Shown: piece after piece, positions 15,903-37,902 of the stretch
Layout: the number at the start of each line of letters is the position of its first letter
Numbering within the stretch: the first letter of the stretch is position 1
Source of the DNA: Bradyrhizobium cosmicum
GTDB lineage: Bacteria > Pseudomonadota > Alphaproteobacteria > Rhizobiales > Xanthobacteraceae
Length of the DNA: 64,000 nt
Assembly (NCBI RefSeq): GCF_007290395.2
Contig: NZ_CP041656.2
Location: 868,001 to 932,000 of the forward strand
Direction: 5' to 3'
Translations under genes and position numbers: made by a program
Notes under the pieces: model-generated
The model's input: only the letters and a program-made list of their open reading frames with translations
Told to the model about the DNA's origin: nothing
Databases searched by the model: none

Positions 15903-17018
15903 CTACGACCCCCCGCCCGCCGTGCCCGAATTCACCGGCGCCAGCTCGTCTTCCCGGCAGCGCCAGCCGTCGGCGGCTTTCACGAACGCAAAGGTCCGCT
16001 GGATCCTGAGGCGGCGCGTGACGTTGAAGGCGTCTCCCGAGCGCTCCCTGCCGCCGATGCCCGGCTGCGGAAGTCCGGTCCTCGGGTCCCAGCAGGTGCC
16101 GGTGCAGGTGGACGCAATCTTGCTGCACGTCGTGAAGGGCGCCAGCACGACCATCTCGATCTCGCCGGTCACCTGCGCCTCCTGGTCGGAGACCTGGCTG
16201 TCGAGCGCATAGACGCGGTTGATGCGGAGGAAATTGCCGCAGGAATTGGCGGCGTGAATCCGCGCGGCGCAGAAGTCGACGGCGTCGGTGTCGGGGATGC
16301 GGGCGGCGACCTGCCGGCCGAACACTTTCTTCGGATCGCCCTTGGCGGCGGCGATGTCGTTGGCCTTGCGCTTGAGATAGTCGGCAAGACACTCCTCCGC
16401 CGATTCGAGCTCGGCAAGCGGAACGTTCTCCTTGCCGACCAGATTGCACTTGCGATCGCGCTCCCGCGTCCACCTTCCGTACTCGGCGAAGGCAAAGCGA
16501 GCCGCGGTCGGGTCCAGCTTGCCGATCAGGCCGAGCACCTGGCCATTGAGCTCGGTTTCCGCAACCGCCAGCGACGGGTCCGCGCAGATCACCGCGCCCG
16601 CCGCGGTGTTGGCCGCCAGACAGTCGAAATCCGGATCGCGCAGGATCGCGGCGCGCTCCTCGGTGACCTTGAGCAGGCACGCCTTGACCCGCTCGACATC
16701 GTCGGCGCGGATCGCGGTCTGGCCGATGATGCCGCAGCCGAGATTGCGCTGGCGGATCCAGATCGCATTTTCCTCGATTCCAGGCAGGCGGTCGGGCAGG
16801 CGGGCCAGCCGTGCCTCGATCGCGGTGCTGAGCTTGTCGGCGGCGGCGGTCAGTTCGGCGTCGCCGCAGAACAGTTGATTGCCGGGGTCGCGGATCTGCT
16901 GGCAGTTGTTCCTGGCGAACAGCGGCAGCTTGTCGGCGATGGAGCGGTCGGATTGCGCGAAGCCTGGTGCCCCGGACAACGCCAGCAGCGCAAGCACAGT
17001 CAGCACGATGAACCGCAT
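15903..17018 (-). CDS. Exported LprI-like protein with two cysteine-rich repeats
   Basis: A 371-residue protein with a signal peptide (about residues 1-21, ending GAPGFA). Two LprI/DUF1311-type modules follow, each with the pattern C-x(n)-C then a helix ending W-x-R-x(n)-C and a further C (about residues 39-120 and 130-225). A third C-terminal domain has several more cysteines, including TCTGTCWDP. LprI-type domains were named for a lysozyme inhibitor, but most members are uncharacterised. Paired cysteines suggest disulfides in the periplasm. It lies 90 bases downstream of the LapG-like protease gene on the same strand, so the two may be expressed together. Confidence 0.75.
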   Translation of the reverse strand: MRFIVLTVLALLALSGAPGFAQSDRSIADKLPLFARNNCQQIRDPGNQLFCGDAELTAAADKLSTAIEARLARLPDRLPGIEENAIWIRQRNLGCGIIGQTAIRADDVERVKACLLKVTEERAAILRDPDFDCLAANTAAGAVICADPSLAVAETELNGQVLGLIGKLDPTAARFAFAEYGRWTRERDRKCNLVGKENVPLAELESAEECLADYLKRKANDIAAAKGDPKKVFGRQVAARIPDTDAVDFCAARIHAANSCGNFLRINRVYALDSQVSDQEAQVTGEIEMVVLAPFTTCSKIASTCTGTCWDPRTGLPQPGIGGRERSGDAFNVTRRLRIQRTFAFVKAADGWRCREDELAPVNSGTAGGGS

Positions 17019-17108: not shown

Positions 17109-17840
17109 CTAACGTGCCTCGGCGGTCGCCATCGACATCCGCACGGGCTCGTCGACATATTTCATCACGGCCGACTGGTAGAGCACGAACAGCGGCTGAT
17201 AGGTCTGTGCGGCCTCGTCCTCGACCATCGCCATGCGGCGGTTGTCGAGCATCAGCCAGTGGCCGTCGAGCTTTGCGGCGGCGACCGCGTGCTCTTCGCT
17301 GGCCCTGACGTCGCGGACCACGACGATGCGGAGGTCCTCGGCCGCGACGCCCGCGAGCCGCAGTGCGGCCAGCTTGGCGATGGCGTAGTCTTCGCAGTCG
17401 CCGGCGCCTCGCGCAAAGGTCGCAAGCGGCGAGCTCCAGATATCGTCGGTGCCGTCATTGGCGGCCCGGATGGCAAGGTTGACGGCGCGGTTGGTCTCGC
17501 CCAGCCGCGCGCGGCCGTCGCGGCTGCGGGCCTGGTCGACGATGGCGAGCAGCTTCAGCGCCGCGGGCGAAGCGCAATTGTCCCGGTCGCCGTCGCAGAG
17601 TGCCAGCTGCACCATGTCGTCGTCGAGCTTGTGCGTCAGCGCGAGCCATTTCTGCTGCAGGCCGCCTGCGGAGATGGCGAAGGCGAACACGCCGAACGGC
17701 TCGGCCGATTTGCGCACGAGCAGGCCTGCCCCCGGCGACAGCAGCGTGCCGGCGCGAAGCTCGGCGGCCGATCCGAACAGGATCACTCCGCACAGCACCA
17801 GGATTGCGCGCCAGGCGCGCGAGCGAGCAGCGGTCTCCAT
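17109..17840 (-). CDS. LapG-like periplasmic cysteine protease (BTLCP family)
   Basis: A 243-residue transglutaminase-like cysteine protease with a signal peptide or N-terminal membrane segment (residues 10-30). The catalytic triad is visible as Cys149 in GDCEDYAIAK, His184 in EEHAVAA and Asp199 in MLDNR. Asp148 and Glu150 beside the cysteine match the calcium ligands known in LapG. LapG cuts the N-terminus of large type I secreted adhesins and so controls biofilm release. This gene is divergent from the 2349-residue adhesin-like gene, which makes that protein its likely partner. No LapD-like receptor is in the window. AAGGGG precedes the ATG. Fold and catalytic residues are clear; the target is inference. 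Confidence 0.85.
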   Translation of the reverse strand: METAARSRAWRAILVLCGVILFGSAAELRAGTLLSPGAGLLVRKSAEPFGVFAFAISAGGLQQKWLALTHKLDDDMVQLALCDGDRDNCASPAALKLLAIVDQARSRDGRARLGETNRAVNLAIRAANDGTDDIWSSPLATFARGAGDCEDYAIAKLAALRLAGVAAEDLRIVVVRDVRASEEHAVAAAKLDGHWLMLDNRRMAMVEDEAAQTYQPLFVLYQSAVMKYVDEPVRMSMATAEAR

Positions 17841-18459
17841 CTGACATCCCCTTCCGGCTTCGCCTGGTCCTTCTTTGACCTCGACGTGCCGGGCTTTGTT
17901 GCTTTCGCGGAGATAGTGCGAGGCGGGCCGTTTTGTTCTGCTTAACGCGCCCGGCAGGGGGCCCAAAACCGCGGGACAGGCTGAAACGGGCCTGCCCAAA
18001 TTGCGTAAAATTTTACGATTCGTCGGCTAGGAGGTCCCGGCTGCCGTGAAATGGAGCCGATTGCAGGCGCAGGTTGTGGGGGGCCTGATTCTGCGCCTTA
18101 TGGCTAACAGCCCGCTATTTCACGGGTTCTGTTAGTTGGGTCACAGATTTTGCTCCGTATTTGCCGCAGGATGTCGCGAGGCACCACGAACAAAAGATGA
18201 CGCAAGTATCTTCTGTTGAAGCTGTGTCGCTTATTACTTTGCATAACTGGGAATGGGCGAAATTTTGCCAGATTCAACCTTAGCTTACTTGAAATACTAC
18301 TTCAGTGCCTCTGTGCACCTGCCGCCATGTGGGGGCTCCCACGGCCAAGTGACGCGAAATCACACAAGCAATAGATGGTTTCGCTAAGGACTTGGTAATG
18401 CTATGCAAGCTTAGGCGGTCGATACTTACTTAGATTTTAACCCTTTTTACGGTGCCCGG
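17841..18459. promoter_or_regulatory. Long AT-richer space between LapG-like and giant adhesin genes
   Basis: About 620 bases with no convincing gene, visibly richer in A and T than its surroundings. It should carry both divergent promoters. It contains a perfect 14-base palindrome, CGTAAAATTTTACG, at 18004-18017, and a small hairpin GTGGG-GGCT-CCCAC at 18329-18342. No clear sigma-54 or CRP site survives inspection. Its size suggests complex regulation, or an untranslated leader on the giant gene. Confidence 0.5.
18004..18017. promoter_or_regulatory. Perfect 14-base palindrome, operator candidate
   Basis: CGTAAAATTTTACG is self-complementary over all 14 bases and lies 164 bases upstream of the LapG-like start and about 440 bases upstream of the giant gene. 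I do not recognise a regulator for it. The AT-rich core would suit a dimeric repressor or a nucleoid-type protein. Confidence 0.4.
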
Positions 18460-21400
18460 TTGAATTACGCTGGCAAATTTGACGCCGCGATTTCCTTGGA
18501 CGGCCAGGGTTTCCGCTCGCCCGCTGATGGCCAGGTCGATTCCTTTACCGCCAAAGCGCACGGTCACGTGCCTGATGGCGCATTCGTTGTTCCTGACCCG
18601 AACCTGATCTTCAACGGGGAGTTCAAGCGCGCAGGTCTCGACCTCGTGCTGTCCCACGACGGTCACGAGTTCGTCGTTCACGATTATTTCAGGGGCGACA
18701 AGCGCGCGGCGATCGCCTCGCCCGATGGCGCCCACCTCACCGGCGACATCGTCAATGCGCTCACCGGCCACGTGCAATATGCGCAGGCCGCAGGCGGCAT
18801 CGCCGCGGCCCAAATCATCGGCCACGTCACCAAGCTGTCCGGCAGCGCGACCGCGGTCCGCAACGGCGTCGCGGTCATCCTGAACAATGGTGACAACGTC
18901 GAGAAGGGCGACGTCGTCTCGACTGGCGGCGACTCGACGCTCGGCATCACCTTCATCGACGGCACCGTGTTCGGCCTGTCCTCCAATGCACGGATGGTGC
19001 TGAACGAGATGGTCTACGACCCCAACGGGTCGAGCAATTCCTCGCTGCTCAGCCTGGTGGCGGGCACCATCACCTTCGTCGCCGGCGAGACCGCCAAGCA
19101 CGGCGACATGAAGATCGACACGCCGGTCGCCACCATGGGCATCCGCGGCACGGCGGTGCTGACCCAGATCAACTTCGTCGTTCCCGCCGGTGGCGGCGAT
19201 CCGCAGCCGCAGGCGAGCTTCCAGGTGCTGGTCGAGCCGAACGGCACGACGGGCTCCTACATCCTCTTCGACAAGGTCACGCTGCTGCCGATCGCGACGG
19301 TCAACCAGGCCGGCCAGATGATCCAGATCAGCGGCGGCAACGTCTCGATCACCAATGCGCTGATGTCGCCGGACATTCAGAAGCTGATCAGCGATGTGTT
19401 CACGCTGAAGTTTACCGACAACAACACCAACACCAAGCTGACCACGAACTTCACCGACACGATCACGCCGACCAGCGACGGTCTGATGTTCAAGACCGCG
19501 GGCGGCTACAGCGCGACCGCGGTCTTTACCAACACCACTCAGCAGGGGACGGACCCTGGCCACAATCCGTCGACCAGCAACCGTATTCCCGGGCCGCCGC
19601 AGGCGCGCAGCCTCGATGCCAACGGCAATGTGAGGTCGGCGTTCGCACTGACCGAGCGCGCCGACACGACTGGCGACACCACGCATTCGGACACGGTCTC
19701 CGGCCGGATCACCTTCGTCGATCAAAACCTTGGCGACAGGCCGACCGTGAGCGTGAACCTCGCGGGCGCGCCGAACTACGTCTACAAGAGCGCCGGCCAG
19801 CAGGACGTCACCGGCTCGCTCACCGATCTGCAGAAGCAGGACATTGCGGCGACGCAGATCCAGATCGCCGTCGCTGCGGACGGTGGCAACGCCAACAACG
19901 GCTCGGCGGTCTGGACCTACACGATCCCCGACCACGTCTTCGACTTCCTCGCGGCCGGCGAAACCCTGACGCTGACCTACATGGTCCGCGTCGACAACAA
20001 TTTCTCGGTCAACCCCGAAGCCACTTTCATCCCGATCACCATCACGATCACGGGGACCAACGACAAGCCGGTGATCACCACCAGCGTGCCGGTCATCACC
20101 TTCGAAGGTGGCACCAGTATTCCGGGTGGCCCGCTCACCAGCGATGTGCCGACATCGGGGACGCTGAACTTCGACGACGTCGATCTCACCGACAAGCATA
20201 CCGTGTCGGTGGCGCTGACCAGCGCGACCCTGCCCGATGGCACCGTTCCGCCGGGCCCGCTCGCGGCGTTCCAGAGCGCGATGTCGGTTGCGATCGCGGC
20301 GGGCGCCGACAGCACCGGAGACGGCACCGGCACCATCAACTGGTCGCTGGCCAATCTGCCGGTCTATCTCGCCGACTTCATTCCGGAAGGCGCGGTGCTG
20401 ACGCTGGTCTACACTGTGACGCTCACGGATTCGCAAGGCGCGACCTCGCAGCAGACCATCACCGTCACGATCACGGGCACCGACGCGCCTGCAGTGGTGT
20501 GGATAGCGACCGATAAGCCCGGCGTTCCCTCCGGCGGGTTCTGGAAGGATGCGGGCAACTGGGCGACCGGTACGGTCCCGACCATCAATGACGACGTCAT
20601 CGTCATCACCGATCAGCTGCGCGGCCTGACGCCGTCCTATCCGGCGACGATCGACGCGGCCGCCTATGCGAAGTCGCTGACGATGAACGATTTCGGTGGT
20701 CCGCCGCCGAAGGTGATCGTCCAGGCCTCGCTGACGATCGCGGGCGCGCTCAACATGGGCGCCGATTCGATCCTCAACGTCGCTGCCACCGGGACGATGT
20801 CGGTTGGCGGCAAGGCCGAAATCCTCGACACGAGCGTGCTCACCAATGCGGGCTATGTGACGCTCGCCGGCGGAGGCGATTTCGCTGCGGGTACCGCGAT
20901 CACCAATTCCGGCACGATCGAGCTTTCCGGCGGTACGCTGAAGACGCTGGCCACGATTCACAATGCCGGCGGCACGCTGAAGGCCGATGCCGGTACGACG
21001 CTGATCGTCGATACCGGGACGATCGACGGCGGCACCGTCACCATTCTGGGCACGCTCGAGCTCGACGGCACCAGCTTGGTCAAGAACGGCACGTTGAACA
21101 ATTCCGGCACGGTCAACGTCAAGGGCACGGTCGAGTTCGCCCACGAGACCGTCTCCAACACCGCGACCGGTTTGATCGAGGTGTTGGCAAACGGCTGGCT
21201 GACGATCCACCAGGGCTCCAGCGTCACCAATTCCGGCCAGATCACGGTCGATGCCAGCGGCAGGCTCACCGTCAACGGCGCGACCATCGGCGGAGCGGGC
21301 GCGGTGATCGACACCGGCGATGGTGGCGATGACGAGGGAGGTCCCGTCCTCAACGCCGCGTTTTACGTCGCCGCAGGCGCGATCACCAATAATGGCGAGA

Positions 21401-24400
21401 TCGATCTGACCGGCGCGGCCGTCCTGAGCGGCGGCACCCTGAACAACAACGCGATCTTCAAGGCGAGCGGTGCGGGCAACGCGCTGAGCGACGAGACTGT
21501 CACCAATGCCGGCACCATAGAAGTGCTTGCCGGTGGCGCGCTCGCGATCAATCAGGGCTCGATAGTCGATAATTCGAACGGCAACGTCGTTGTCGATGAT
21601 GGCGCCGTGCTCACGCTCAACGGCGCCACGATAAGCGGCGGCGCGATCAACAATTACAGCCTTCTAGGTGGCGCCATCGACGTCACCGGCAACAGCACGA
21701 TCGACGGCGATGCGACGCTGACCAAGGGCACCGTCACGGTCGAGAGCGGCGTCACGCTGACGCTCGACGACGTGACCGTGGCGGGAGCCACGATCACCAA
21801 TCGTGGCACGGTCAAGGTCGATGCGGGCAAGGAGCTGACGCTGGCAGGCTCGATCCTGACCGGCGGCACGCTCACTCTTGCCGGCACGCTGGAATCGACC
21901 GGCACGAGCGCGATCCACAGCGCCGACCTCGACAATACCGGAACGATCTCCGTCACCAGCGGTACGCTGACGATCGATCTCCATGCGCTCACCAATCACA
22001 ACCTGATCGAGGCTGTGACGGGCGGCACGCTGAAGCTGACGACAGCGACCGTCACCAACACCGGCGGAATGATCTCGGTCGACGGGACCTCGAAGCTCTA
22101 TCTGACCGACGTTACGATCAACGGCGGCAGCCTGACCAATGCCGGCAATCTCTACAGCACCGGCCTCAACACGGTCACGGGCAGCGTCACCAACACCGGC
22201 GGCACCATCGAGGTTCAGAACGGCACGCTCAACCTCGCCGGCGGCATCGAGGGCGCCGGCAAGGTGATCGTCGACGACGACGCGACGCTGGAGTTTTCGA
22301 ACGCGACCGGCTCGATCCACATCGTCAATTCCGGCTCGATCGTGAGTTCCGGAAGCGGCGCGGCGATCCACATCGAGCAGGCGGCGGGTTCGGTGATCGA
22401 TAATGACGGCACCATCGGGTCGGCCCTTGTGGATCCGGCCTCCGGGACCGACGCGATCGTCGCGAACGGTGGGCACGTCACGATCACCAACACCGGCGAC
22501 ATCAACGGCAATATCTCGGTCGCAAGCGCCACGTTCAACAACAACGCGGGCGGCACCTGGACCGTATCCGGCACCAGCGTGTTCGGTAACGCGTCCACCA
22601 TCGTCAATCATGGCGATATCAACCTGCATGGCGCGTCGATCTCCGGCACCGGGCTGACCATCGAGAATGACAGCCACATCAACAGCTACGGTACGGCGAC
22701 GATCACCGGCGCGATCACCAATACCGGCACCATCGAGATCCATGACGGCGAGCTGACGCTGTTCGGCTCGCTGTCGGGTGCGGGCTCGGTCACCGTCGAT
22801 GTCGGCGCGCACCTGATCCTCGAAGGCACGGTGGCGCAAACGATCCACCTCGACGGTGATGGCGCAGGACTTCAGATTGATACGGACACGTTCGGCGGCT
22901 CGATCGCGGACCTGTCCGTGAACGACACGATCGAACTGTCGACGATCAAGTGGGGCACCGGCACCAGCGCCGTCTACGTGCCAAATGCCGGCGACCCCGC
23001 GAGCGGCGGCGTGCTCACGGTCACCGGCGACGATGGCAAGACCATCGAGCTGACCCTCGTCGGCGATTATCGCAACGCGCACTTCGCGGGCAGCGACGAT
23101 GGCGGCCACACGCTGATCACGATGCATGCGAACGACGATGCGCCGTCGTTCGACGTGGCCCATGCATCGCTGACCGCCAGCTTCTCCGAGCGCGAGAACA
23201 CCACCGGCTCCGGCGATTCGGACCCGGTGCCTGCCGCGACCGGCTCGATCGGCTTCACCGACATCGACCTGACCGACCGTCCGACCGCGGCGATCACGCA
23301 CCAGACCACGACATGGCTGGATGCCGACCACAGCACGCCGCTGACGCTGACAACCGGTCAGGCGTCGGCGCTCGAGCAGGCGCTGTCGATCCTTGGCAGC
23401 GGCAAGAACAACGGTACGGTCGGATGGAGTTATTCGATCGTCGACAACGCGCTCGATTTCCTCGGCGAGGGCCAGACCGCGACGGTCGTCTCCACCATCA
23501 CGCTCACTGACGATTACGGCAAGGCTGCCACCGCCGACGTCACCATCACGATCGCCGGCAAGAACGACGCGCCGACGCTGGCGTCCGTGACCAAGGGCGG
23601 GCTGGTGGACACGGCCGCGAACGACAGTTTCACGGATATCGAAGGGACACTGGCCGGGACCGACGTCGACAGCGGCGAGACGGCGACGCTGAAATATGCC
23701 GTGCTCGACGCGACGAACCATGAGGCGATGACAGTCACGGGTCAGTACGGCTCGCTGACGGTCTGCGAAGACGGCAGCTACAAATACGTTCCGAATGCCG
23801 CCGCGATCAACGCGCTCTCGCAAGGCAACTATACGGACACTTTCACGGTCCAGACCAAGGACGCCCAGGGCGCCGTCGGCACGGCGTCGTTCAAGGTGAA
23901 CGTCACCGGCGCCAACGATGCGCCGACCGTCACGGCCGCAAGTGGCGATAGCGCCGGCGCCACCGTCAGCGAGACCAATGCCGGCGTGGACAAGACCGGC
24001 ACGCTGACCGTGTCCGATCTCGACACCAGCGATCACGTCGGCGTGGCGGTCGACCACGTCACCGTCACACTCGACGGTCATTTGCAGGCCGACGGCGGCA
24101 TCGGTGGTTTGACGGGAACGAATCTGCTCAGCTATTTCACCGTCCCGTCCGGTGACATCCTGAACGGCACGGCCGACCACGCCCAGTTCGGCTGGGAATT
24201 CAATTCGGGCAGCCAGACCTTCGACTTCCTCGCCGCCGGCCAGACGCTGACGCTGGAATATGCGATCGTGCCTGATGATGGACACGCGGCGACCGGCACC
24301 GGCAATGGTGTCGTCACCATCACCATCAACGGGACCAACGACGCGCCGGTTCTCGACAACACGTCGCTGGCCTCGGTCGTCGGGAATGACAGTAATCCGG

Positions 24401-25509
24401 ACGGCGCGACGATCAGCAGCCTGTTCACCGACAAGTTCCATGACGCCGACGCCAGCTCGAGCTTCCAGGCCATCGCGGTGACGTCCGATGCCGCCTCGGC
24501 GGCGCAGGGCATCTGGCAATACGAGGTAGCCGGGACCGATCAGTGGGTCACGATCGGAGCGGTCAGCGATGCCAATGCGCTGGTGCTCAGCACCGACACG
24601 CTGCTCCGGTTCGTTCCGGCCGACGGCTTTGCCGGCGTACCGGGCTCGCTGGGCGTCCATGCGCTCGACGACACTTATACCGGCGGCATCACCAATGCGG
24701 CCTCAGCGGCGACGACCGACATCACGGGCGGCACCGGCGGCACCACGCCGATCTCGGAGCTCACCATCATCGACACGCAAGTAATCGCGCCCGAGAATCC
24801 GCGGCCGAGCGGCCCTGTCATCAACACCGACAGCTTCCACGTCTCGCATTTCAGCGAGGGCAGCGTCACCGACGTCATTACCGATCTCGTGGTCACCGAC
24901 GCCGATGCGGGCGCGGCGACCGATGCCTTCAATGTCGAGGTGTCGACATCGCATCCTGATACAAGCAGCGTCGGTGTTTATCCGACGTCCGGTACGCTCG
25001 AGCAGATCAACACCGGCCTCGGGGACGGTTACGGCATCTCCTACGAGCCGACCGGCGCCGATCCGGAAGCCCAGTCGCCGGCGATCGATCGGATCACGGT
25101 GAAGGTGACCGACACCACAACGAACCTGTCCGACACCGTGAACTTCATCTTCGTCGAGGGCGCCAACAGCCAGGACATCACCCTTGAGGGTACCGGCGGC
25201 AAGGACGTCATCTTCGCGACCGAGTCGAGCGACACGCTGACCGGCGGTGCCGCCAAGGACCAGTTCGTGTTCGGGCCGGCGGCGTCGCAGGACACCATCC
25301 AGCACACCGTCAACGATTTCGAGTTCGGCCTCGACAAGATCGATCTGCGGGAGTTCGGCGGCATCAGCTCCGTGAACGATCTTGCCCCGACCTCGCAGGA
25401 CGGCGGTACACTGCTCACGCTCGACAACCACGAGACGATCCTGCTCAAGGGTGTCGCCCTCGGCAATCTCAGCACCACCGATTTCATCTTCGGGACCCAC
25501 GTCGCATAA
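18460..25509 (+). CDS. Giant FecR/VCBS-repeat protein with type I secretion C-terminus (adhesin-like)
   Basis: 2349 residues, lacking a Sec signal. Order of parts by my count: a distinct N-terminal region (1-120); a FecR-like domain (about 121-235, with RNGVAVILNNGDNVEKGD and VATMGIRGTAVL); two VCBS/cadherin-like repeats (about 400-680, each closing with an ITITGTND-type strand); about 850 residues of short beta-helix-like units built on TITNxGTIEV (about 690-1550); three more VCBS repeats to about 1967; two further beta domains; and a serralysin/VC_A0849-like C-terminus (GGAAKDQFVFGP, then DFEFGLDKIDLREF). This fits a type I secreted surface adhesin. The only start I can place is the TTG at 18460, without a good ribosome site; the frame is closed upstream by TAG at 18412. 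The first methionine codon is near residue 178, so initiation needs checking. Confidence 0.85.
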   Translation: MNYAGKFDAAISLDGQGFRSPADGQVDSFTAKAHGHVPDGAFVVPDPNLIFNGEFKRAGLDLVLSHDGHEFVVHDYFRGDKRAAIASPDGAHLTGDIVNALTGHVQYAQAAGGIAAAQIIGHVTKLSGSATAVRNGVAVILNNGDNVEKGDVVSTGGDSTLGITFIDGTVFGLSSNARMVLNEMVYDPNGSSNSSLLSLVAGTITFVAGETAKHGDMKIDTPVATMGIRGTAVLTQINFVVPAGGGDPQPQASFQVLVEPNGTTGSYILFDKVTLLPIATVNQAGQMIQISGGNVSITNALMSPDIQKLISDVFTLKFTDNNTNTKLTTNFTDTITPTSDGLMFKTAGGYSATAVFTNTTQQGTDPGHNPSTSNRIPGPPQARSLDANGNVRSAFALTERADTTGDTTHSDTVSGRITFVDQNLGDRPTVSVNLAGAPNYVYKSAGQQDVTGSLTDLQKQDIAATQIQIAVAADGGNANNGSAVWTYTIPDHVFDFLAAGETLTLTYMVRVDNNFSVNPEATFIPITITITGTNDKPVITTSVPVITFEGGTSIPGGPLTSDVPTSGTLNFDDVDLTDKHTVSVALTSATLPDGTVPPGPLAAFQSAMSVAIAAGADSTGDGTGTINWSLANLPVYLADFIPEGAVLTLVYTVTLTDSQGATSQQTITVTITGTDAPAVVWIATDKPGVPSGGFWKDAGNWATGTVPTINDDVIVITDQLRGLTPSYPATIDAAAYAKSLTMNDFGGPPPKVIVQASLTIAGALNMGADSILNVAATGTMSVGGKAEILDTSVLTNAGYVTLAGGGDFAAGTAITNSGTIELSGGTLKTLATIHNAGGTLKADAGTTLIVDTGTIDGGTVTILGTLELDGTSLVKNGTLNNSGTVNVKGTVEFAHETVSNTATGLIEVLANGWLTIHQGSSVTNSGQITVDASGRLTVNGATIGGAGAVIDTGDGGDDEGGPVLNAAFYVAAGAITNNGEIDLTGAAVLSGGTLNNNAIFKASGAGNALSDETVTNAGTIEVLAGGALAINQGSIVDNSNGNVVVDDGAVLTLNGATISGGAINNYSLLGGAIDVTGNSTIDGDATLTKGTVTVESGVTLTLDDVTVAGATITNRGTVKVDAGKELTLAGSILTGGTLTLAGTLESTGTSAIHSADLDNTGTISVTSGTLTIDLHALTNHNLIEAVTGGTLKLTTATVTNTGGMISVDGTSKLYLTDVTINGGSLTNAGNLYSTGLNTVTGSVTNTGGTIEVQNGTLNLAGGIEGAGKVIVDDDATLEFSNATGSIHIVNSGSIVSSGSGAAIHIEQAAGSVIDNDGTIGSALVDPASGTDAIVANGGHVTITNTGDINGNISVASATFNNNAGGTWTVSGTSVFGNASTIVNHGDINLHGASISGTGLTIENDSHINSYGTATITGAITNTGTIEIHDGELTLFGSLSGAGSVTVDVGAHLILEGTVAQTIHLDGDGAGLQIDTDTFGGSIADLSVNDTIELSTIKWGTGTSAVYVPNAGDPASGGVLTVTGDDGKTIELTLVGDYRNAHFAGSDDGGHTLITMHANDDAPSFDVAHASLTASFSERENTTGSGDSDPVPAATGSIGFTDIDLTDRPTAAITHQTTTWLDADHSTPLTLTTGQASALEQALSILGSGKNNGTVGWSYSIVDNALDFLGEGQTATVVSTITLTDDYGKAATADVTITIAGKNDAPTLASVTKGGLVDTAANDSFTDIEGTLAGTDVDSGETATLKYAVLDATNHEAMTVTGQYGSLTVCEDGSYKYVPNAAAINALSQGNYTDTFTVQTKDAQGAVGTASFKVNVTGANDAPTVTAASGDSAGATVSETNAGVDKTGTLTVSDLDTSDHVGVAVDHVTVTLDGHLQADGGIGGLTGTNLLSYFTVPSGDILNGTADHAQFGWEFNSGSQTFDFLAAGQTLTLEYAIVPDDGHAATGTGNGVVTITINGTNDAPVLDNTSLASVVGNDSNPDGATISSLFTDKFHDADASSSFQAIAVTSDAASAAQGIWQYEVAGTDQWVTIGAVSDANALVLSTDTLLRFVPADGFAGVPGSLGVHALDDTYTGGITNAASAATTDITGGTGGTTPISELTIIDTQVIAPENPRPSGPVINTDSFHVSHFSEGSVTDVITDLVVTDADAGAATDAFNVEVSTSHPDTSSVGVYPTSGTLEQINTGLGDGYGISYEPTGADPEAQSPAIDRITVKVTDTTTNLSDTVNFIFVEGANSQDITLEGTGGKDVIFATESSDTLTGGAAKDQFVFGPAASQDTIQHTVNDFEFGLDKIDLREFGGISSVNDLAPTSQDGGTLLTLDNHETILLKGVALGNLSTTDFIFGTHVA

Positions 25510-25658
25510 CGATGCGCCGGAAGGTCCTCGCGACCCGCCGCCCGGCCCGGCCGCGGCAAAAAATCCGTCATCCTCCGCCAGCAAAGAATAGAAAATCGCC
25601 CACAGACGCTCCATGATCGGCGCACCCGGCGTGATGCGAGGCAGGACATCCGACTGAT

Positions 25659-27890
25659 ATGAAACGTCTAAAGATCCTGCGGCGGTGGTTTGCGCGGAAG
25701 CTCGGCTTCGCCCGCGTGATGTGTCTTGCGCTGCTGGTGCTGTTTGCCGGCGCGCGGCTGTGGGATCCGCCGCCGATCCAGGAATTGCGACTGCGCACCT
25801 TCGACATGTTTCAGCTGATCGATCCGCGCCACAAGGCTGCACGGCCGGTCACCATCGTCGATATCGACGACAAGAGTCTCGCCAAGCTCGGCCAGTGGCC
25901 GTGGCCGCGGACGCGGATCGCCGATCTGATCCAGAACCTCACCAACAACGGCGCGGTGGTGATCGGATTCGACGTGGTGTTCTCGGAAGCGGACCGGCTC
26001 AACCCCGATCTGGTCGCGAGCCAGATGCGCGATCTCGACGATGCCACCCGCGCCAAGCTGCGCGAGTTGCCGAGCAACGACCAGATCCTCGCCGATGCGA
26101 TCAAGCGTTCGCGCGTAGTGCTGGGCGAGACCGGGCAGCGGGCGATCGCGACCGAGATCGACAAGTCGCTCCCCTTCACCGGCGTCGCGACCGTCGGGGA
26201 GGAGGGCGCCGAACGCTTCCTGTTCGAATTCCCGGGCCTGCTGCGCAACGTGCCCGCGATCGAGAAGGTCGCGGCCGGCCGCGGCCTGTTCACCATCAGG
26301 ACCGAGCGTGACGGCCTGATCCGCCGCGTGCCGATGGTGATGCGCGCCCAGGGCAACATCATGCCCTCGCTCAGCCTGGAGATCCTGCGTGTCGTCACGG
26401 GAACACCGACGCTGCTGGTGCGGACCGACAAGACCGGCGTTCGCGCGGTTCGCCTCAAGGGCGCGGAGATTCCGACCGACAAGAATGGCCAGCTCTGGGT
26501 GCATTACGCGCGCCAGGACCCTTCGATCTATGTGTCCGCCGCCGACGTGCTCGACAACACCGTGCCGCCCGGCAAGATCGCCGGCAAGCTGATCCTGGTC
26601 GGCACCTCCGCGGTCGGACTGAACGACATCAAGACCACGCCGGTGTCCTCGACCATGCCGGGCGTCGAGATCCACGCCCAGGTGCTCGAAAGCGTGCTGA
26701 GCGGCGCGATCATCTCGCAGCCGAACTACGCGCTCGGCGTCGAATTGCTCGCGGCGCTGTTCATCGGCCTTCTCGTCATCATCTTCACGCCGAACCTCGG
26801 GCCCGTGCGGCTGGTGCTCGCGGGTGCGACCTTCGCCGCGATCCTGATCGGTGTGTCCTGGTTCTTCTACGCGCAGTACCGCTATCTGATCGACTTCACC
26901 TATCCGCTGCTCTCGACCACGGCGATCTATCTGACGCTGATCTTCGCCAGCTTCGTGCGCGAGCAGCGCCAGCGCGTGCAGATCCGCGGCATGTTCGCGC
27001 AATACATGTCGCCGGTGCTGGTCGAGCAGCTGGCGCAGTCTCCGGAAAAGCTCGTGCTCGGCGGCGAGGAGCGCGTGATGACGATCATGTTCTCCGACGT
27101 GCGCGGCTTCACCACGATCTCGGAGACCTACAAGCACGATCCCCAGGGGCTGATCGCGCTGATGAACCGGTTCCTGACGCCGCTCACGGACGTGATCATC
27201 GATCAGAAGGGCTACATCGACAAATACATGGGCGACGCCATCATGGCGTTCTGGAACGCGCCGCTCGACGATGCCGAGCACGAGGTCAACGCCTGCGAGG
27301 CCGCGATCCAGATGCTGGAGCGGATCGACGCCGTCAACAAGGAGCGCGAGCAGGAGGCCGCCGACGGCGGCCACGTCTACATCCCGCTCAACGTCGGCAT
27401 CGGCCTCAACACCGGCATCGGCGTGGTCGGCAACATGGGCTCCGACCTGAAGAAGAACTATTCGGTGCTCGGCGACAGCGTCAATCTCGCGTCGCGTCTC
27501 GAAGGACAGTCGAAGGAGTACGGCTTCCCGATCATCGTGGGCTCCCGGACCGCGCTCGCGGCCAAGGACAAGTTCGCCATCCTCGAGCTCGACTTCATCA
27601 TGGTCAAGGGCAAGACCGAGCCGGAGGTGATCTATGCCATCGCCGGCCGCGACGACGTGATGCAGTCGGCAGCGTTCCAGCGCCTGCGCAACATCACCAT
27701 CGAGATGCTCGGCTGCTACCGCGGCCGCGACTGGCAGGGCGCGCTCGACGCCATCGAACGCGGCCGCCGCAGCGAGGATGCCGACACGCTGGAAAAACTG
27801 TTCAAGCTCTACGAGATCCGCATCAGGGATTTCCAGGTCAACCCGCCGGCGGAAGGCTGGACCGGGGCGTATGCGCTGCTGACGAAGTAG
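25659..27890 (+). CDS. CHASE2-domain adenylate/guanylate cyclase (class III)
   Basis: A 743-residue membrane protein. A first membrane segment (about 18-34) leads into an extracytoplasmic CHASE2 sensor (about 40-350, with VTIVDIDDKSLAKLGQWPWPR and TTPVSSTMPGVEIHAQVLES). Three or so membrane segments follow (about 365-440), then a cytoplasmic cyclase domain. Metal-binding aspartates are Asp480 in FSDVRGFT and Asp526 in YMGDAIMAF; GDSVNLASRLEG is also intact, so it should be active. It makes cAMP or cGMP in response to an outside signal. It starts 149 bases after the giant FecR-domain gene on the same strand. CHASE2 and FecR domains are recurrent genome partners, which suggests a functional link. 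Confidence 0.9.
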   Translation: MKRLKILRRWFARKLGFARVMCLALLVLFAGARLWDPPPIQELRLRTFDMFQLIDPRHKAARPVTIVDIDDKSLAKLGQWPWPRTRIADLIQNLTNNGAVVIGFDVVFSEADRLNPDLVASQMRDLDDATRAKLRELPSNDQILADAIKRSRVVLGETGQRAIATEIDKSLPFTGVATVGEEGAERFLFEFPGLLRNVPAIEKVAAGRGLFTIRTERDGLIRRVPMVMRAQGNIMPSLSLEILRVVTGTPTLLVRTDKTGVRAVRLKGAEIPTDKNGQLWVHYARQDPSIYVSAADVLDNTVPPGKIAGKLILVGTSAVGLNDIKTTPVSSTMPGVEIHAQVLESVLSGAIISQPNYALGVELLAALFIGLLVIIFTPNLGPVRLVLAGATFAAILIGVSWFFYAQYRYLIDFTYPLLSTTAIYLTLIFASFVREQRQRVQIRGMFAQYMSPVLVEQLAQSPEKLVLGGEERVMTIMFSDVRGFTTISETYKHDPQGLIALMNRFLTPLTDVIIDQKGYIDKYMGDAIMAFWNAPLDDAEHEVNACEAAIQMLERIDAVNKEREQEAADGGHVYIPLNVGIGLNTGIGVVGNMGSDLKKNYSVLGDSVNLASRLEGQSKEYGFPIIVGSRTALAAKDKFAILELDFIMVKGKTEPEVIYAIAGRDDVMQSAAFQRLRNITIEMLGCYRGRDWQGALDAIERGRRSEDADTLEKLFKLYEIRIRDFQVNPPAEGWTGAYALLTK

Positions 27891-28094: not shown

Positions 28095-29690
28095 TCACTC
28101 CACCCCGATCGTCGTCAGGTCCTGGAACCAGTGCTGGGCCTGCACGAACTGCTTGATCTTCGGCGACAGCGCATGCGGGTTGGTGTCGTGCACGACCCAC
28201 ACCAGCGCGGCGTTGTCGACGATCAGCGCGTGCGCCTGGGCCAGCAATTCGTCCTGCTTGGTGGCATCGAAGGTCTGCTTGGCCTCGTCGATCAGCGCGT
28301 CGACCTTCGGGTTCTTGTAGCCGCCCCAGTTGACGCCGACCGGCGCGATCTGTCCGGAATGGAAGAAGCGAACGATGGCGTAGAGCGGGTCCGAGGTGAC
28401 GTAGGCGATGTTGTTGGCGGTGATGCCGGCGTTCATCTCGTCGGCCGCGCCCTTGCGCCAATGCGTATAGAGCGTCTCGAGCTCGACCACCTTGAAGTCG
28501 ATGTCGATGCCGATCTCCTTGAAGCTCTGCTGCAGGAATTCGTTCATCGGCAGCGACAGCATCTGGCCGGTGCCGCCCTGCGCGATGATGAAGGTGGTCT
28601 TCAGCGGCTTGGCCTTGGAGTAGCCGGCCTCTTCGACCAGCTTCTTGGCGGCGGCGAGATCATACTTGATGTCGAAGGTCGGCTTGCCGAACCACGGGCT
28701 CGACGGGTCGACCTGGCCCTTGGCGGGTTTTGCGAGGCCATTCATCAGCCCGACGACCTCATCGCGGTTGATTGCGAGGTTCAGCGCCTTGCGCAGCCGG
28801 ATATCGGTCCAGGGCGAACCGGGGAGCACGCTGAGATGATAATTCCAGACGTGCGGCGTGACGTTGTCGACCAGCTTCATGCCGGCGGCCTTGAGCTGCG
28901 GCACGGCGTCCGGCGCCGGCGTCTCGATCAGGTCCACCTGTCCGGCGAGCAGCGCGTTGGTGCGCGTCAGCGCTTCCGGCATCGGCACCAGCACGAGCTT
29001 GTCGACCTTGGGAATGCGCTTCTTGTTCCAGTAGTCCGGGTTCTTCGTCAGCTCGGCGAGCTCGCGCGGCACCAGCTTGGTCAGCTTGAACGGGCCGGTG
29101 CCGGAGGGCTGGCTGGCGAACTTGTCCCAGTCCTTGCCGAGCTTCTCGTATTGAGTCGGGCTCGACACCAGGAACCACAGCATCTGATAGGGAAAGAAGG
29201 AGTCGACCGTCTTGGTGGTGATCTCCACCGTGGAATCGTCGATCTTGGCGTAGCTCGCGACCGACGGAAGCCGCGTCTTCACCTGTGCGCTCTGCCGCTT
29301 GTCGAATTGCGGGGCCTTGTCGTTGAGCACCTTGTCCAGATTCCAGATCACCGCGTCGGCGTTGAAGTCGCTGCCGTCGTGAAACTTCACGCCCTGGCGC
29401 AACGTGAAGCGCCATTTGGTCTTGTCCTTGTCGTCCACCTTCCATTCGGTGGCGAGCCCAGGCACCAGCTTGCCCGGGCGGTCGGCGACGTCCATCTCCC
29501 ATGCCACCAGCGGATCGTAGATCGTGTAGGCCGTGAACTGATAGGCGCCGGCGCCGCGATCGGGCTGGCCGGTCGTCAGCGGAATGTCCGCCATCGAGAT
29601 GCCGTAGCGCACCACCGTTTCGGCGCGCGCCGAGATTGCGGAAACCGCCAGCGCAAGCACGGCGAGACAAGTCGATAGTCGGGTACGCAT
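28095..29690 (-). CDS. Peptide-type ABC binding protein (SBP_bac_5), divergent copy
   Basis: A 531-residue family 5 periplasmic binding protein with a signal peptide (residues 1-23, SARA then ET). Typical motifs are LVPGLATEWKVDD, GVKFHDGSDFNADAVIWNLDKV and RLRKALNLAINRDEVVG. Such proteins bind peptides, nickel, opines or other small amides for Dpp/Opp transporters. It has no transporter genes of its own and probably feeds the one encoded divergently, whose own binding protein is clearly paralogous. A sigma-54 promoter lies about 36 bases upstream of the ATG. The ATG at 29690 sits right after the promoter-proximal leader with GGAG 11 bases away. Confidence 0.9.
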   Translation of the reverse strand: MRTRLSTCLAVLALAVSAISARAETVVRYGISMADIPLTTGQPDRGAGAYQFTAYTIYDPLVAWEMDVADRPGKLVPGLATEWKVDDKDKTKWRFTLRQGVKFHDGSDFNADAVIWNLDKVLNDKAPQFDKRQSAQVKTRLPSVASYAKIDDSTVEITTKTVDSFFPYQMLWFLVSSPTQYEKLGKDWDKFASQPSGTGPFKLTKLVPRELAELTKNPDYWNKKRIPKVDKLVLVPMPEALTRTNALLAGQVDLIETPAPDAVPQLKAAGMKLVDNVTPHVWNYHLSVLPGSPWTDIRLRKALNLAINRDEVVGLMNGLAKPAKGQVDPSSPWFGKPTFDIKYDLAAAKKLVEEAGYSKAKPLKTTFIIAQGGTGQMLSLPMNEFLQQSFKEIGIDIDFKVVELETLYTHWRKGAADEMNAGITANNIAYVTSDPLYAIVRFFHSGQIAPVGVNWGGYKNPKVDALIDEAKQTFDATKQDELLAQAHALIVDNAALVWVVHDTNPHALSPKIKQFVQAQHWFQDLTTIGVE

Positions 29691-29736
29691 GGCCCAGGGC
29701 TCCAAGAGTGAATTGGGGAGAAGTCAGGGCCAAACC

Positions 29737-29753
29737 TGCAATCTTGATGCCAG
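29737..29753 (-). promoter_or_regulatory. Sigma-54 promoter for the divergent binding-protein gene
   Basis: On the minus strand the sequence reads CTGGCATCAAGATTGCA, matching YTGGCACGRNNNTTGCW at all but two fixed positions, with the required ten-base spacing between GG and GC. Transcription would start near 29726, about 36 bases before the ATG. Confidence 0.7.
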
Positions 29754-29771
29754 AATAGGCAGCGCCGCAGC

Positions 29772-29779
29772 TTTGCACC
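29772..29779. promoter_or_regulatory. NtrC-type half site between two sigma-54 promoters
   Basis: TTTGCACC matches one arm of the NtrC consensus (TGCACC-N5-GGTGCA). The second arm is poor, so this is only a candidate activator site. Its place between the two divergent promoters, about 85 bases from the plus-strand start point, is right for an enhancer-binding protein. Confidence 0.3.
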
Positions 29780-29834
29780 TCGGCAATCACAAAGACTTGT
29801 CGTCGCAGGGGGAATTTGCAGAAAAAGTTTCTCT

Positions 29835-29851
29835 TTGGCATAGCCATTGCA
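29835..29851 (+). promoter_or_regulatory. Sigma-54 promoter for the peptide/amide transport operon
   Basis: TTGGCATAGCCATTGCA matches the RpoN consensus YTGGCACGRNNNTTGCW at all but two fixed positions, with correct GG to GC spacing. Transcription would start near 29863, giving a leader of about 38 bases before the ATG at 29901. Confidence 0.75.
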
Positions 29852-29900
29852 TACGTTTGCATCAAAATTAATCATCGTAAGCCGGAAAAGGATTGAGGCG

Positions 29901-31559
29901 ATGCTTATCAAGACGACCACACGCGCGGCGCTGATTGCGGCGCTGGCTCTGACGACGGCGGCCGCATGGCCGCACGTGGCCAGTGCCGAGACCGTGCTGC
30001 GCATCGGCATGACCGCTGCCGATATTCCGCGCACGCTGGGCCAGCCTGATCAGGGGTTTGAAGGCAACCGCTTCACCGGCCTCACCATGTATGACGCGCT
30101 CACCGGCTGGGACCTCTCGTCCGCGGACAAGCCCAGCGTGGTCATTCCCGGCCTCGCCACCGAGTGGAAGGTCGACGATGCCGACAAGACCAAATGGATC
30201 TTCAAGCTGCGCCCCGGCGTCACCTTCCATGACGGCTCGCCGTTCAATGCCGACGCCGTGGTGTGGAACGTCGACAAGGTGCTGAAGCAGGACGCGCCGC
30301 AGTTCGACGCCAGCCAGGTCGGCGTCACTGCGTCGCGCATGCCGACGCTGGCCTCCGCCAAGAAGATCGACGACATGACGGTCGAACTCACCACCAAGGA
30401 GCCCGACAGCTTCCTGCCGATCAACCTCACCAATTTGTTCATGGCCAGCCCGGCGAAGTGGCAGCACTTCTATGAGAAGGCCGAGGGCGCCGACGCCAAG
30501 GCGAAGTCGCAGGCCGCCTGGACCGCGTTCGCCAAGGACGCCGCCGGCACCGGCCCGTGGAAGATGGCGAGCTTCACGCCGCGCGAACGGCTCGAGCTGG
30601 TCAAGAACGCGAGCTATTGGGACAAGGCGCGCGTGCCCAAGGTCGACAAGATGGTGCTGGTGCCAATGCCGGAAGCGAACGCCCGCACCGCGGCGCTGCT
30701 CTCCGGTCAGGTCGATTGGGTCGAGGCGCCGGCGCCCGACGCGCTGCCCGAGCTCAAGCAGCGCGGCTTCAAACTCTACGCCAACGAGCAACCGCACGTC
30801 TGGCCGTGGCAGTTTTCACGCGTCGAAGGCTCGCCCTGGAACGACATCCGCGTGCGCAAGGCCGCGAACCTCTGCGTCGATCGCGAAGGTCTGAGGGACG
30901 GCCTGCTCGCCGGCCTGATGGTGCCGGCGACCGGCACCTTCGAGCCCGGCCATCCCTGGCGCGGCAAGCCGACCTTCCAGATCAAGTATGACAAGGCGGC
31001 CGCCCAGAAGCTGATGCAGGAGGCCGGCTTCGGTCCGAACAAGAAGCTGACGGTGAAGGTGCAGACCTCCGCCTCCGGCTCGGGCCAGATGCAGCCGCTG
31101 CCGATGAACGAATATCTCCAGCAGGCACTCGCCGAGTGTTATTTCGACGTGAAGCTCGACGTCATCGAGTGGAACACGCTGTTCACCAACTGGCGCCGCG
31201 GCGCCAAGGACCCCAGCGCCAACGGCTCGAACGCGACCAACGTCACCTATGCGGCGATGGACCCGTTCTTCGCGCTGGTGCGCTTCCTGCAATCGAGCAT
31301 GGCGCCGCCGGTCTCGAACAATTGGGGCTTCATCAACGATCCCAAGTTCGACGAACTGGTGAAGAAGGCACGTCAGACCTTCGATCCCGCCGCACGTGAC
31401 GCCGCGCTGGCCGAGCTGCACGCGGCTTCCGTCGACGACGCCGCCTTCCTCTACGTCGCCCACGACGTCGGCCCCCGCGCCATGAGCCCGAAGGTGACGG
31501 GCGTCGTGCAGCCGAAGAGCTGGTTCATCGACTTCTCGCTGGTGTCGATCACGCCGTGA
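29901..31559 (+). CDS. Peptide-type ABC binding protein (SBP_bac_5), first gene of operon
   Basis: A 552-residue family 5 periplasmic binding protein with a signal peptide (residues 1-29, VASA then ET). It shares long stretches of motif order with the divergent copy (VIPGLATEWKVDDADKTKW, VTFHDGSPFNADAVVWNVDKVL, MVLVPMPEANAR, PLPMNEYLQQ), so the two are paralogs. The ATG follows AAAGGATTGAGGCG. It heads a run that includes two permeases, two ATPases, an AtzG-like protein and an amidase, and it is preceded by a sigma-54 promoter. The ligand is probably a peptide or amide; this is inferred from the operon. Confidence 0.9.
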   Translation: MLIKTTTRAALIAALALTTAAAWPHVASAETVLRIGMTAADIPRTLGQPDQGFEGNRFTGLTMYDALTGWDLSSADKPSVVIPGLATEWKVDDADKTKWIFKLRPGVTFHDGSPFNADAVVWNVDKVLKQDAPQFDASQVGVTASRMPTLASAKKIDDMTVELTTKEPDSFLPINLTNLFMASPAKWQHFYEKAEGADAKAKSQAAWTAFAKDAAGTGPWKMASFTPRERLELVKNASYWDKARVPKVDKMVLVPMPEANARTAALLSGQVDWVEAPAPDALPELKQRGFKLYANEQPHVWPWQFSRVEGSPWNDIRVRKAANLCVDREGLRDGLLAGLMVPATGTFEPGHPWRGKPTFQIKYDKAAAQKLMQEAGFGPNKKLTVKVQTSASGSGQMQPLPMNEYLQQALAECYFDVKLDVIEWNTLFTNWRRGAKDPSANGSNATNVTYAAMDPFFALVRFLQSSMAPPVSNNWGFINDPKFDELVKKARQTFDPAARDAALAELHAASVDDAAFLYVAHDVGPRAMSPKVTGVVQPKSWFIDFSLVSITP

Positions 31560-31578
31560 GGCGAGCACGCTGGTAGGG

Positions 31579-31680
31579 CTCCCCTCCCCCTTGCGGGGAG
31601 GGGTTGGGGAAGGGGGTTCACACGGGCGGTCCCTGTGTGGCTACCCCTCTCCCTAGCCCTCCCCCGCAAGGGGGGAGGGA
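31579..31680. repeat. Long palindromic element, family B copy 2
   Basis: Arms CTCCCCTCCCCCTTGCGGGG at the left and CCCCCGCAAGGGGGGAGGG at the right flank a centre with GGGTTGGGGAAGGGGG and its complement. It lies between the binding-protein stop and the first permease on the same strand, so it sits inside the putative operon, where it may stabilise the upstream message or limit read-through. Confidence 0.8.
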
Positions 31681-31749
31681 ACCCTCGCATCGCGTGTCCC
31701 TTACTGTAGCCCGCGCACGTCACCGTGCGACATCACGTTAGGTCAATCA

Positions 31750-32703
31750 GTGCTCGCCTATATCGCCAGACGCATCGTCTACGTCATCCCGATCGTCATC
31801 AGCGTGGCGCTGGTGTGCTTTCTGCTCGTGCACATCACGCCGGGCGATCCGCTCGTCGCGGTGCTCCCCGCGGATGCCTCGCAGGAGCTCGCGGCGCAGC
31901 TGCGCGCCGCCTATGGTTTCGACCGTCCGCTGCCGGTGCAGTTCGGGCTGTGGCTGCTCCGCGCGCTGCACGGCGATCTCGGCAATTCCATCGCCACCGG
32001 CCGTCCCGTGCTCGCCGAGGTCATGCGCGCGGTCGCCAACACCGTCACGCTGGCGATTGCGGCCGCCATCATCGGCTTTACCATGGGCATCCTGCTTGGC
32101 CTGATCGCCGGCTATTTCCGCGAGACCTGGGTCGACAAGGTCGCGACGTCCTTTGCCATCGCCGGCGTCTCCGTGCCGCATTACTGGCTCGGCATGGTGC
32201 TCGTCATCATCTTCTCGGTGCAGCTCAACTGGCTGCCCGCGGTCGGCGCCGGGCCGAACGGCTCCAACTCCTGGGCCTGGGACTGGGCGCATCTGAAATA
32301 TCTGGTGCTGCCGGCGATCACGACCTCGGTGATCCCGATGGGCATCGTCACCCGCACCGTGCGCGCGCTGACCGGTGATATCCTCTCGCAGGATTTCGTC
32401 GAGGCCTTGCGCGCAAAAGGCCTGCACGAGACCGGCGTGTTCCGCCACGTCATCAAGAACGCCGCGCCCACCGCGCTCGCAGTGATGGGGCTTCAGCTCG
32501 GCTACATGCTCGGCGGCTCGATCCTGATCGAGACCGTGTTCTCCTGGCCGGGCTCCGGCTTCCTGCTCAACTCGGCGATCTTCCAGCGCGACCTGCCGCT
32601 GCTGCAGGGCACGATCCTGATCCTGGCGCTGTTCTTCGTCTTCCTCAATCTGCTGGTCGACATCGCGCAAGCCGCGATCGATCCGCGCATCAAGCGGGGC
32701 TAG
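31750..32703 (+). CDS. Dpp/Opp-type ABC permease, DppB family
   Basis: A 317-residue inner-membrane permease with six membrane segments. It has the DppB-type N-terminus (LAYIARRIVYVIPIVISVAL), the early pattern TPGDPL, a conserved REALRAKG-like loop written EALRAKGLHETGVFRHV, and the C-terminal ETVFSWPGSGFLL. It pairs with the next gene to form the pore. The start codon is GTG. Only three bases separate it from the next gene. It is separated from its binding-protein gene by a palindromic element. Confidence 0.9.
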   Translation: MLAYIARRIVYVIPIVISVALVCFLLVHITPGDPLVAVLPADASQELAAQLRAAYGFDRPLPVQFGLWLLRALHGDLGNSIATGRPVLAEVMRAVANTVTLAIAAAIIGFTMGILLGLIAGYFRETWVDKVATSFAIAGVSVPHYWLGMVLVIIFSVQLNWLPAVGAGPNGSNSWAWDWAHLKYLVLPAITTSVIPMGIVTRTVRALTGDILSQDFVEALRAKGLHETGVFRHVIKNAAPTALAVMGLQLGYMLGGSILIETVFSWPGSGFLLNSAIFQRDLPLLQGTILILALFFVFLNLLVDIAQAAIDPRIKRG

Positions 32704-32706
32704 CCG

Positions 32707-33609: not shown

Positions 33610-33612
33610 GCC

Positions 33613-34674: not shown

Positions 34675-34868
34675 CGAGACCGACACCCAAAGAGATCAAG
34701 CCGATCGCGCAAGTCGCCGGCGTCCCCGTCGATGACGAGATCGCAACGCGTATCTCCAATTCGATCGGACCGGCCTTCGAGGGTTTTGAAGCCATCGCCG
34801 GCACGTTGCCGTTCGACCTCGAGCCCGCGCTCTATCCGATCGCGCAGACGCTGAAGGTGTCGAAATGA
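34671..34868 (+). CDS. AtzG-like small amidase subunit (DUF4089)
   Basis: A 65-residue helical protein with the DUF4089 pattern: an N-terminal VAGVPVDDEIATRI segment and a C-terminal LPFDLEPALYPIAQTLK. AtzG forms a GatC-like complex with the amidase AtzE in cyanuric acid breakdown, wrapping around it and supporting its stability. Here the gene overlaps both the upstream ATPase and the downstream amidase by four bases (ATGA each time), which fits a stoichiometric complex with that amidase. Confidence 0.8.
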   Translation: MTRPTPKEIKPIAQVAGVPVDDEIATRISNSIGPAFEGFEAIAGTLPFDLEPALYPIAQTLKVSK

Positions 34869-37874: not shown

Positions 37875-37902
37875 CAGCTGTTTCGGTTCAATCGGAACTT
37901 TC

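Follow-up and report, generated by a model that had tools for sequence, protein, structure and literature searches.

Gene content of the locus

The stretch analysed here (hereafter the window) comprises 64,000 nucleotides of Bradyrhizobium cosmicum (NZ_CP041656.2, positions 868,001 to 932,000), whose genome of 7.27 Mb in one contig has its nearest matches in Bradyrhizobium. At positions 17109-27890, it contains the genes for a LapG-like BTLCP cysteine protease, a divergently oriented giant protein with a FecR domain, and a nucleotide cyclase with a CHASE2 sensor domain. The original prediction, made from the sequence, had joined these three genes into one locus where the release of an adhesin could be tied to cyclic nucleotide signalling, and it is this possible adhesin module that is examined here.

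The protease gene (17109-17840, minus strand) encodes 243 residues when started from the ATG at 17840, which was preferred over the listed open reading frame (ORF) start (TTG at 17999); the 120 homologues listed have 228-253 residues. The product matched Peptidase_C93 (53.9 bits, cut-off 27) and possessed a single hydrophobic segment at residues 9-31, forming an N-terminal signal or anchor segment. As predicted, the Cys-His-Asp triad (C149, H184, D199) and the DCE calcium residues (D148, E150) were intact; all five were identical across 81 aligned rows, three of which were the window's own protease and 78 its relatives, including a more distant group (the partial L064 and L069 were left out, and the genome's two other BTLCPs did not form part of the alignment). 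Two PDB sequence matches rose above noise, both of them LapG (4u65 from P. fluorescens, E = 6e-11; 4fgo from Legionella, E = 2e-8). Among the three BTLCPs encoded by the genome, that of the window scored lowest.

Separated from the protease by 619 bases (intergenic region 17841-18459), the giant gene (18460-25509, plus strand, TTG start) encodes 2349 residues, confirming the length and the divergent orientation first proposed. Family matches were obtained for a FecR domain (residues 151-233) and VCBS repeats, and a Kyte-Doolittle scan of the protein detected no hydrophobic signal or transmembrane segment. The giant is probably secreted by a type I secretion system (T1SS), with a conserved N-terminus, a variable middle and a T1SS-like C-terminus.

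The third gene (25659-27890, plus strand) starts 149 bases past the giant's stop codon and encodes a class III nucleotide cyclase of 743 residues, in which, as had been read from the sequence, CHASE2 (residues 26-372, 209.9 bits) and Guanylate_cyc (residues 474-656, 73.5 bits) both matched within one membrane protein, with transmembrane segments near residues 11-35 and 355-405. Its top PDB matches were adenylate cyclases, the Lys of its DKYMGD motif aligned with the corresponding Lys of CyaB, and a Ser occupied the second specificity position. It resembles an adenylate more than a guanylate cyclase, and cyclic AMP (cAMP) is its probable product, since its closest solved relatives are adenylate cyclases. 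A model of the CHASE2 region (25659-26858; predicted local distance difference test, pLDDT, 86.7) gave no convincing PDB match, which is no proof of a new fold.

Conservation of the gene order among relatives

Conservation was assessed in the best 80 of 577 confirmed protease relatives from a genome scan (L004-L083). The divergent giant and the cyclase stood beside the protease in 51 of them, and the giant was present without a cyclase match in nine, making protease and giant divergent neighbours in 60 of the 80. This order held in Bradyrhizobium, Tardiphaga, Rhodopseudomonas and Afipia, and thus beyond close strains, which bears out the proposal that the three genes form one locus. In eight of the nine relatives without a cyclase match, the sequence ends in the giant or within ~250 bases of it.

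Neither giant nor cyclase was found in 19 of the 80 relatives. Two of these sequences end near the protease (L021, L050) and two are rearranged (L071, L072), L072 retaining the cyclase together with HlyD and ATP-binding cassette (ABC) transporter genes. The remaining 15 belong to a second group of proteases that are more distant (41-49% identity; L065-L068, L073-L083), of which 13 adjoin another ABC-HlyD pair; in L066, the ABC transporter is of the LssB type (909 bits) and a frame of more than 3200 residues is cut by the locus end. Bradyrhizobium and its relatives hence also possess a more Lap-like BTLCP locus, distinct from the module in the window. In L033, the cyclase is kept and the N-terminus of the giant is absent, with a C-terminal giant remnant (residues 2241-2347, E = 1e-4; L033:9688-10029) lying between protease and cyclase. 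This locus was considered as a natural loss of the giant, which would imply a giant-independent function, and set aside, as the remnant and the metagenome-assembled genome (MAG) contig point to a damaged or misassembled locus.

An LprI-domain gene (15903-17018) follows the protease gene and adjoins the protease in many Bradyrhizobium loci. It was not retained as a module member, having no match in the Tardiphaga/Afipia loci.

A linked type I secretion system

Downstream on the giant's strand, the window encodes a T1SS ABC transporter of the PrtD type (38089-39876, plus strand; PrtD model 732.4 bits, cut-off 510; LssB model not passed, 361 bits, cut-off 693) and a periplasmic adaptor of the HlyD family (39873-41207, plus strand; TIGR01843, 398.3 bits, cut-off 209). 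No TolC-type domain was detected among the window ORFs scanned. In the Tardiphaga, Rhodopseudomonas and Afipia loci (L057-L059, L061-L063, L070), ABC and HlyD genes lie between the giant and the cyclase (domains confirmed in L058), and the window's ABC gene is the orthologue of the Tardiphaga/Afipia one: searched with the Tardiphaga protein, the B. cosmicum genome gave 38089-39876 as its best match (77% identity, 970 bits), the runner-up reaching 210 bits. This orthologue was found in all ten genomes searched (seven Bradyrhizobium, three Tardiphaga/Afipia). It lies on the giant's strand, at a distance from the cyclase of 10.0-10.4 kb in six of the Bradyrhizobium genomes and of 14.0 kb in BTAi1, downstream in each case, and stands between giant and cyclase in the three Tardiphaga/Afipia genomes tested.

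The type I secretion C-terminus claimed for the giant was upheld only indirectly. The window's own protein passed no family model for such a C-terminus, and a single GGAAKD was the only RTX-like motif found in it; type I secretion is suggested by the nearby T1SS genes, by the Tardiphaga homologue, which matched Peptidase_M10_C (21.1 bits, cut-off 20.7), and by RTX repeats in related giants.

The N-terminus of the giant and candidate cleavage sites

The conserved part of the giant is its N-terminus. Across 39 sequences, the first 330 residues had a mean column identity of 60%, and the N-terminal 300 residues were alignable family-wide, the remainder differing in length and match; giant frames untouched by a contig end had 1270 residues or more, and truncated ones reached over 3190. 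This region begins with a conserved prefix domain without a family match (residues ~46-105; 18595-18774, plus strand), followed by a linker motif, A108-Q109-A110 (18781-18789, plus strand), whose Gln is invariant in all 39 sequences, and by a FecR or RIN-type retention domain (residues 118-233; 18811-19158, plus strand). A phmmer search matched residues 118-197 of the latter to 5ix9, the domain that anchors the Marinomonas ice adhesin to the cell surface (E = 1.1e-5), and 5ix9 was also the sole PDB match at E ≤ 0.001 of an AlphaFold model of the N-terminus (TMt 0.82, root-mean-square deviation 2.2, 71 columns), the weak structural matches below it including FecR-like anti-sigma regulators. Sequence and model together support its assignment to the LapA/Marinomonas type of retention domain, through which the giant would be retained at the cell surface.

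LapG substrates carry a targeting helix after the retention domain and a [T/A/P]AAG consensus at the cleavage site, according to the accessible part of one report (PMC13090378). A helix is predicted in the giant after the FecR region (residues 304-318; 19369-19413, plus strand), in a position like that of the LapG targeting helix. The canonical cleavage site was rejected as unconserved across the 39 N-termini, leaving two candidate cut sites: the AQA linker before the FecR domain and the stretch just beyond the helix.

The same region bears on a very improbable alternative, in which the giant would be a freely secreted T1SS protein with a vestigial or structural FecR domain, and the gene order would reflect an old secretion island without any regulatory link. 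PrtD-type pumps export freely secreted proteins and LapB is of the LssB type, so that the PrtD-type pumps found here would suit such a protein. Against free secretion stand an N-terminus that aligns throughout the family when the rest varies in length and match, and a modelled fold whose match is a cell-surface anchoring domain; retention of the giant is the preferred reading.

FecR, CHASE2 and BTLCP across Alphaproteobacteria

The association of these domains was surveyed in 115 alphaproteobacterial genomes, evenly drawn across the class. CHASE2 gave 137 matches above cut-off (a few being pieces of a single gene) in 57 genomes, and BTLCPs were found in 33. A FecR match lay within 3 kb of at least 41 of these CHASE2 matches, which were spread over 29 of the 57 genomes, compared to 0.81 expected under uniform placement; as 150 of 179 FecR matches were used, these pair counts are lower bounds. 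BTLCPs were present in 13 of the 19 genomes with a FecR frame of at least 900 residues and in 20 of the 96 others (Fisher p = 9e-5; among the FecR matches listed, of any secretion type, and uncorrected for phylogeny or genome size).

Within the B. cosmicum genome itself, three of the four CHASE2 genes adjoin a FecR gene. At G000:C1:2307256-2309209 (L086, L092, L108), a FecR-domain gene directly precedes a CHASE2-PAS-GGDEF-EAL gene, a cyclic di-GMP (c-di-GMP) version of the pair, and at G000:C1:2789380-2790840 (L087, L091, L109), a small FecR protein adjoins a second CHASE2 cyclase.

Giants were paired with CHASE2 cyclases elsewhere in the class. L113, from a genome of another alphaproteobacterial family (G063), encodes a FecR-RTX giant of 1724 residues divergent from a CHASE2 cyclase. 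The cyclase frame is followed after 35 bases, on its own strand, by a BTLCP frame, and the giant by two TolC-type frames; the locus is a rearranged version of the module. FecR-RTX giants divergent from CHASE2 cyclases were also found in L116 and L118, with no protease match in the stretch examined. The frames of L117 and L120 had no clean N-termini and were excluded, and L119 and L121, which combine FecR and CHASE2, were excluded from the T1SS giants for their Sec signal-like start, as judged by eye.

A possible retain-and-release adhesin module

We put at about one in two the probability that these genes make up a Lap-like adhesin module of the retain-and-release kind, in which a FecR anchor is linked to a CHASE2 adenylate cyclase that stands where Lap has LapD. 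This reading draws on the three-gene order of the 51 relatives (with nine further protease-giant pairs), the T1SS ABC orthologue in ten of ten genomes, the 5ix9 match, the conserved N-terminus, the rearranged module of L113 and the FecR-CHASE2 pairing. The PrtD/HlyD pump (38089-41207) would export the giant C-terminus first, and the prefix and FecR/RIN domain, coming last, would remain periplasmic and hold the giant in the outer-membrane channel. The periplasmic BTLCP protease would cut between this anchor and the rest, freeing the adhesin, and the cyclase, in the inner membrane with a periplasmic sensor, would sense whether the FecR anchor, or its cleaved stub, is present or in what state it is, and adjust cAMP. 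The signal would run outside-in, whereas that of LapD runs inside-out; a precedent is found in the CHASE2 cyclases of S. meliloti, where, in the part of the report available, signalling passes from an outer-membrane barrel to cAMP (PMC13001267). The module may allow a cell to sense the adhesin on its own surface or to release it.

Several results weigh against this reading. The protease did not pass the LapG equivalog model (NF045674, 57.1 bits, cut-off 320), and the model of the giant's N-terminus had a low overall confidence (pLDDT 52). The strict [T/A/P]AAG motif occurred in five of the 39 giant N-termini (first 450 residues; positions 19, 114, 114, 334 and 351) and not in that of the window, and the AQA-type linker was also present in the FecR giants lacking a protease match in the stretch examined (L116, 10.9 kb; L118, 19 kb). 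One MAG relative (L047) is a true miss, its giant being followed by 1.3 kb (L047:1-1291) with other frames and no cyclase match, the cyclase being either missing or moved. A BTLCP and CHASE2 lay within 10 kb of each other in only three of the 115 genomes (the window's, G063 and G056). In G056 (L114, L123; G056:C7), a T1SS pair, cyclase, BTLCP and RTX giant occur together with the CHASE2 frame interrupted, and the giant's frame runs for at least 3591 residues to the contig end, its N-terminus lying beyond the contig. For this reason, and because the L114 stretch cut the giant, G056 was dropped as an example of a giant without FecR.

The rarity of BTLCP-CHASE2 proximity means that most FecR-CHASE2 pairs have no BTLCP nearby. 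Statistically, the link between CHASE2 and FecR is the stronger one, and the protease link is strong among the relatives of the module and thin outside them. As the FecR-CHASE2 pairing is widespread without a protease in the vicinity, a tie of the cyclase to the FecR domain is more probable than one to the protease. This distribution would suit a rather unlikely alternative of two separate functions, namely a FecR-CHASE2 signalling pair in which the giant's FecR domain acts as ligand or transducer only, and a BTLCP with another periplasmic target, for example in polysaccharide export. HvyA, an alphaproteobacterial BTLCP, controls capsulation rather than an adhesin according to the text available (PMC4241560), the giant is without a canonical LapG site, and the two further BTLCPs of the genome likewise favour a separation. 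Against it stand the divergent neighbourhood of protease and giant in 60 of the 80 relatives, the protease of L113, found next to the cyclase and a FecR giant although these genes are arranged differently there, the identity of both above-noise PDB matches as LapG, and the higher frequency of BTLCPs in genomes with a long FecR frame, subject to the neglect of kinship in that comparison. We favour a single module in which the protease would act on the anchored giant.

A broader version of the single-module reading is held more tentatively, with the odds against it: CHASE2 domains would read periplasmic FecR-fold domains, here an adhesin anchor, giving outside-in sensing of adhesin status via cAMP, the reverse of LapD, and the protease would reset the signal as well as free the adhesin. 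If true, the cell would count or check its own surface adhesins. LapG-type release, in the published texts available, is tied to c-di-GMP via LapD or a LapD-like receptor, and a rhizobial counterpart without LapD, linked instead to a cAMP sensor, would bring two fields of second-messenger research together. It would also offer FecR-fold anchors as candidate ligands for CHASE2, few of whose ligands are known, suggest a role for the alphaproteobacterial giants with FecR domains, and open the sensing of adhesin status to experiment in plant-associated bacteria that are easy to handle.

Comparison with known systems

The closest likeness is to the Lap system of Pseudomonas fluorescens (LapA-LapG-LapD) and the Dvh system of Desulfovibrio, which share with the window a giant adhesin with an N-terminal retention domain of the Marinomonas kind, a periplasmic BTLCP protease with conserved Cys-His-Asp, and a linked T1SS. 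The window differs from them by a CHASE2 cyclase where no LapD was found, a PrtD-type instead of an LssB-type ABC transporter, an extra prefix domain before the retention domain, the lack of a conserved [T/A/P]AAG site, and a protease far under the LapG cut-off. The absence of LapD noted for the window extends to the whole genome, in which the sole match to PF16448 (LapD_MoxY_N) was a HAMP histidine kinase, a receptor with an unrelated periplasmic domain being outside the reach of this model. The original interpretation, of adhesin release through a wiring different from Lap/LapD, was sustained in part: the conserved three-gene unit, the retention domain and the lack of a LapD match in the genome support it, and the canonical LapG site is missing. 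It had overlooked the T1SS genes and the wide occurrence of FecR-CHASE2 pairs away from any protease.

A near-ordinary Lap system, with the protease controlled by a c-di-GMP receptor that is encoded elsewhere and escaped recognition, and with the cyclase regulating expression only, via cAMP, is judged quite improbable. The window does encode a Lap-like protease, anchor and pump, the genome has the FecR gene beside a CHASE2-PAS-GGDEF-EAL protein described above, and LapD-like receptors may have unrelated periplasmic domains, as exemplified by DvhD in the part of the report available (PMC13090378). Nevertheless, the genome's one LapD_MoxY_N match is a histidine kinase, the 20 window ORFs scanned gave no GGDEF or EAL domain, and the usual neighbour is a CHASE2 cyclase.

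The other parallels concern single parts of the module, and each is drawn from the accessible portion of the source cited. In Campylobacterota, a CHASE2 adenylate cyclase clusters with an adjoining FecR-domain outer-membrane protein, in a proposed single pathway (PMC9239204); those clusters combine the FecR protein with a phosphodiesterase and a TPR protein, whereas in the window FecR is the giant's anchor domain and a BTLCP is linked. In the BiofilmReg operon of Burkholderia contaminans (PMC5192318), a LysM-FecR protein adjoins a CHASE2 sensor, with a link to biofilm, but the signal goes out through a histidine kinase and a response regulator, and no adhesin or protease is mentioned in the operon as described. 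CyaD1, CyaD2 and CyaK of S. meliloti, with NsrA (PMC13001267, PMC5498481), are CHASE2 cyclases raising cAMP on a signal sensed via an outer-membrane protein, CyaD1 without CHASE2 making cAMP constitutively (PMC5498481); the partner there is a beta-barrel, and these excerpts describe no T1SS adhesin or protease. HvyA of Caulobacter (PMC4241560) resembles the window's protease as a periplasmic alphaproteobacterial BTLCP with Cys-His-Asp, and differs in acting on capsulation, its gene lying in a capsule export locus.

A literature search, whose coverage excluded most subscription journals, returned no paper uniting CHASE2, adenylate cyclase and adhesin, and none of the CHASE2-FecR papers, in the portions available, describes a T1SS adhesin with a BTLCP. 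The FecR-CHASE2 pair is known already; the version with an adhesin anchor, a PrtD pump and a LapG-like protease appears new in the literature searched.

Neighbouring genes

The window's cyclase and T1SS genes are separated by genes (28095-36280) encoding two SBP_bac_5 binding proteins, oligopeptide permeases, an ATPase and an amidase. An ORF of 239 residues immediately before the ABC gene (37373-38092) was considered as a module member and discarded, having no family match and an Arg/His-rich sequence. Beyond the T1SS genes, and on their strand, lies an AMP nucleosidase-type gene (41423-42892).

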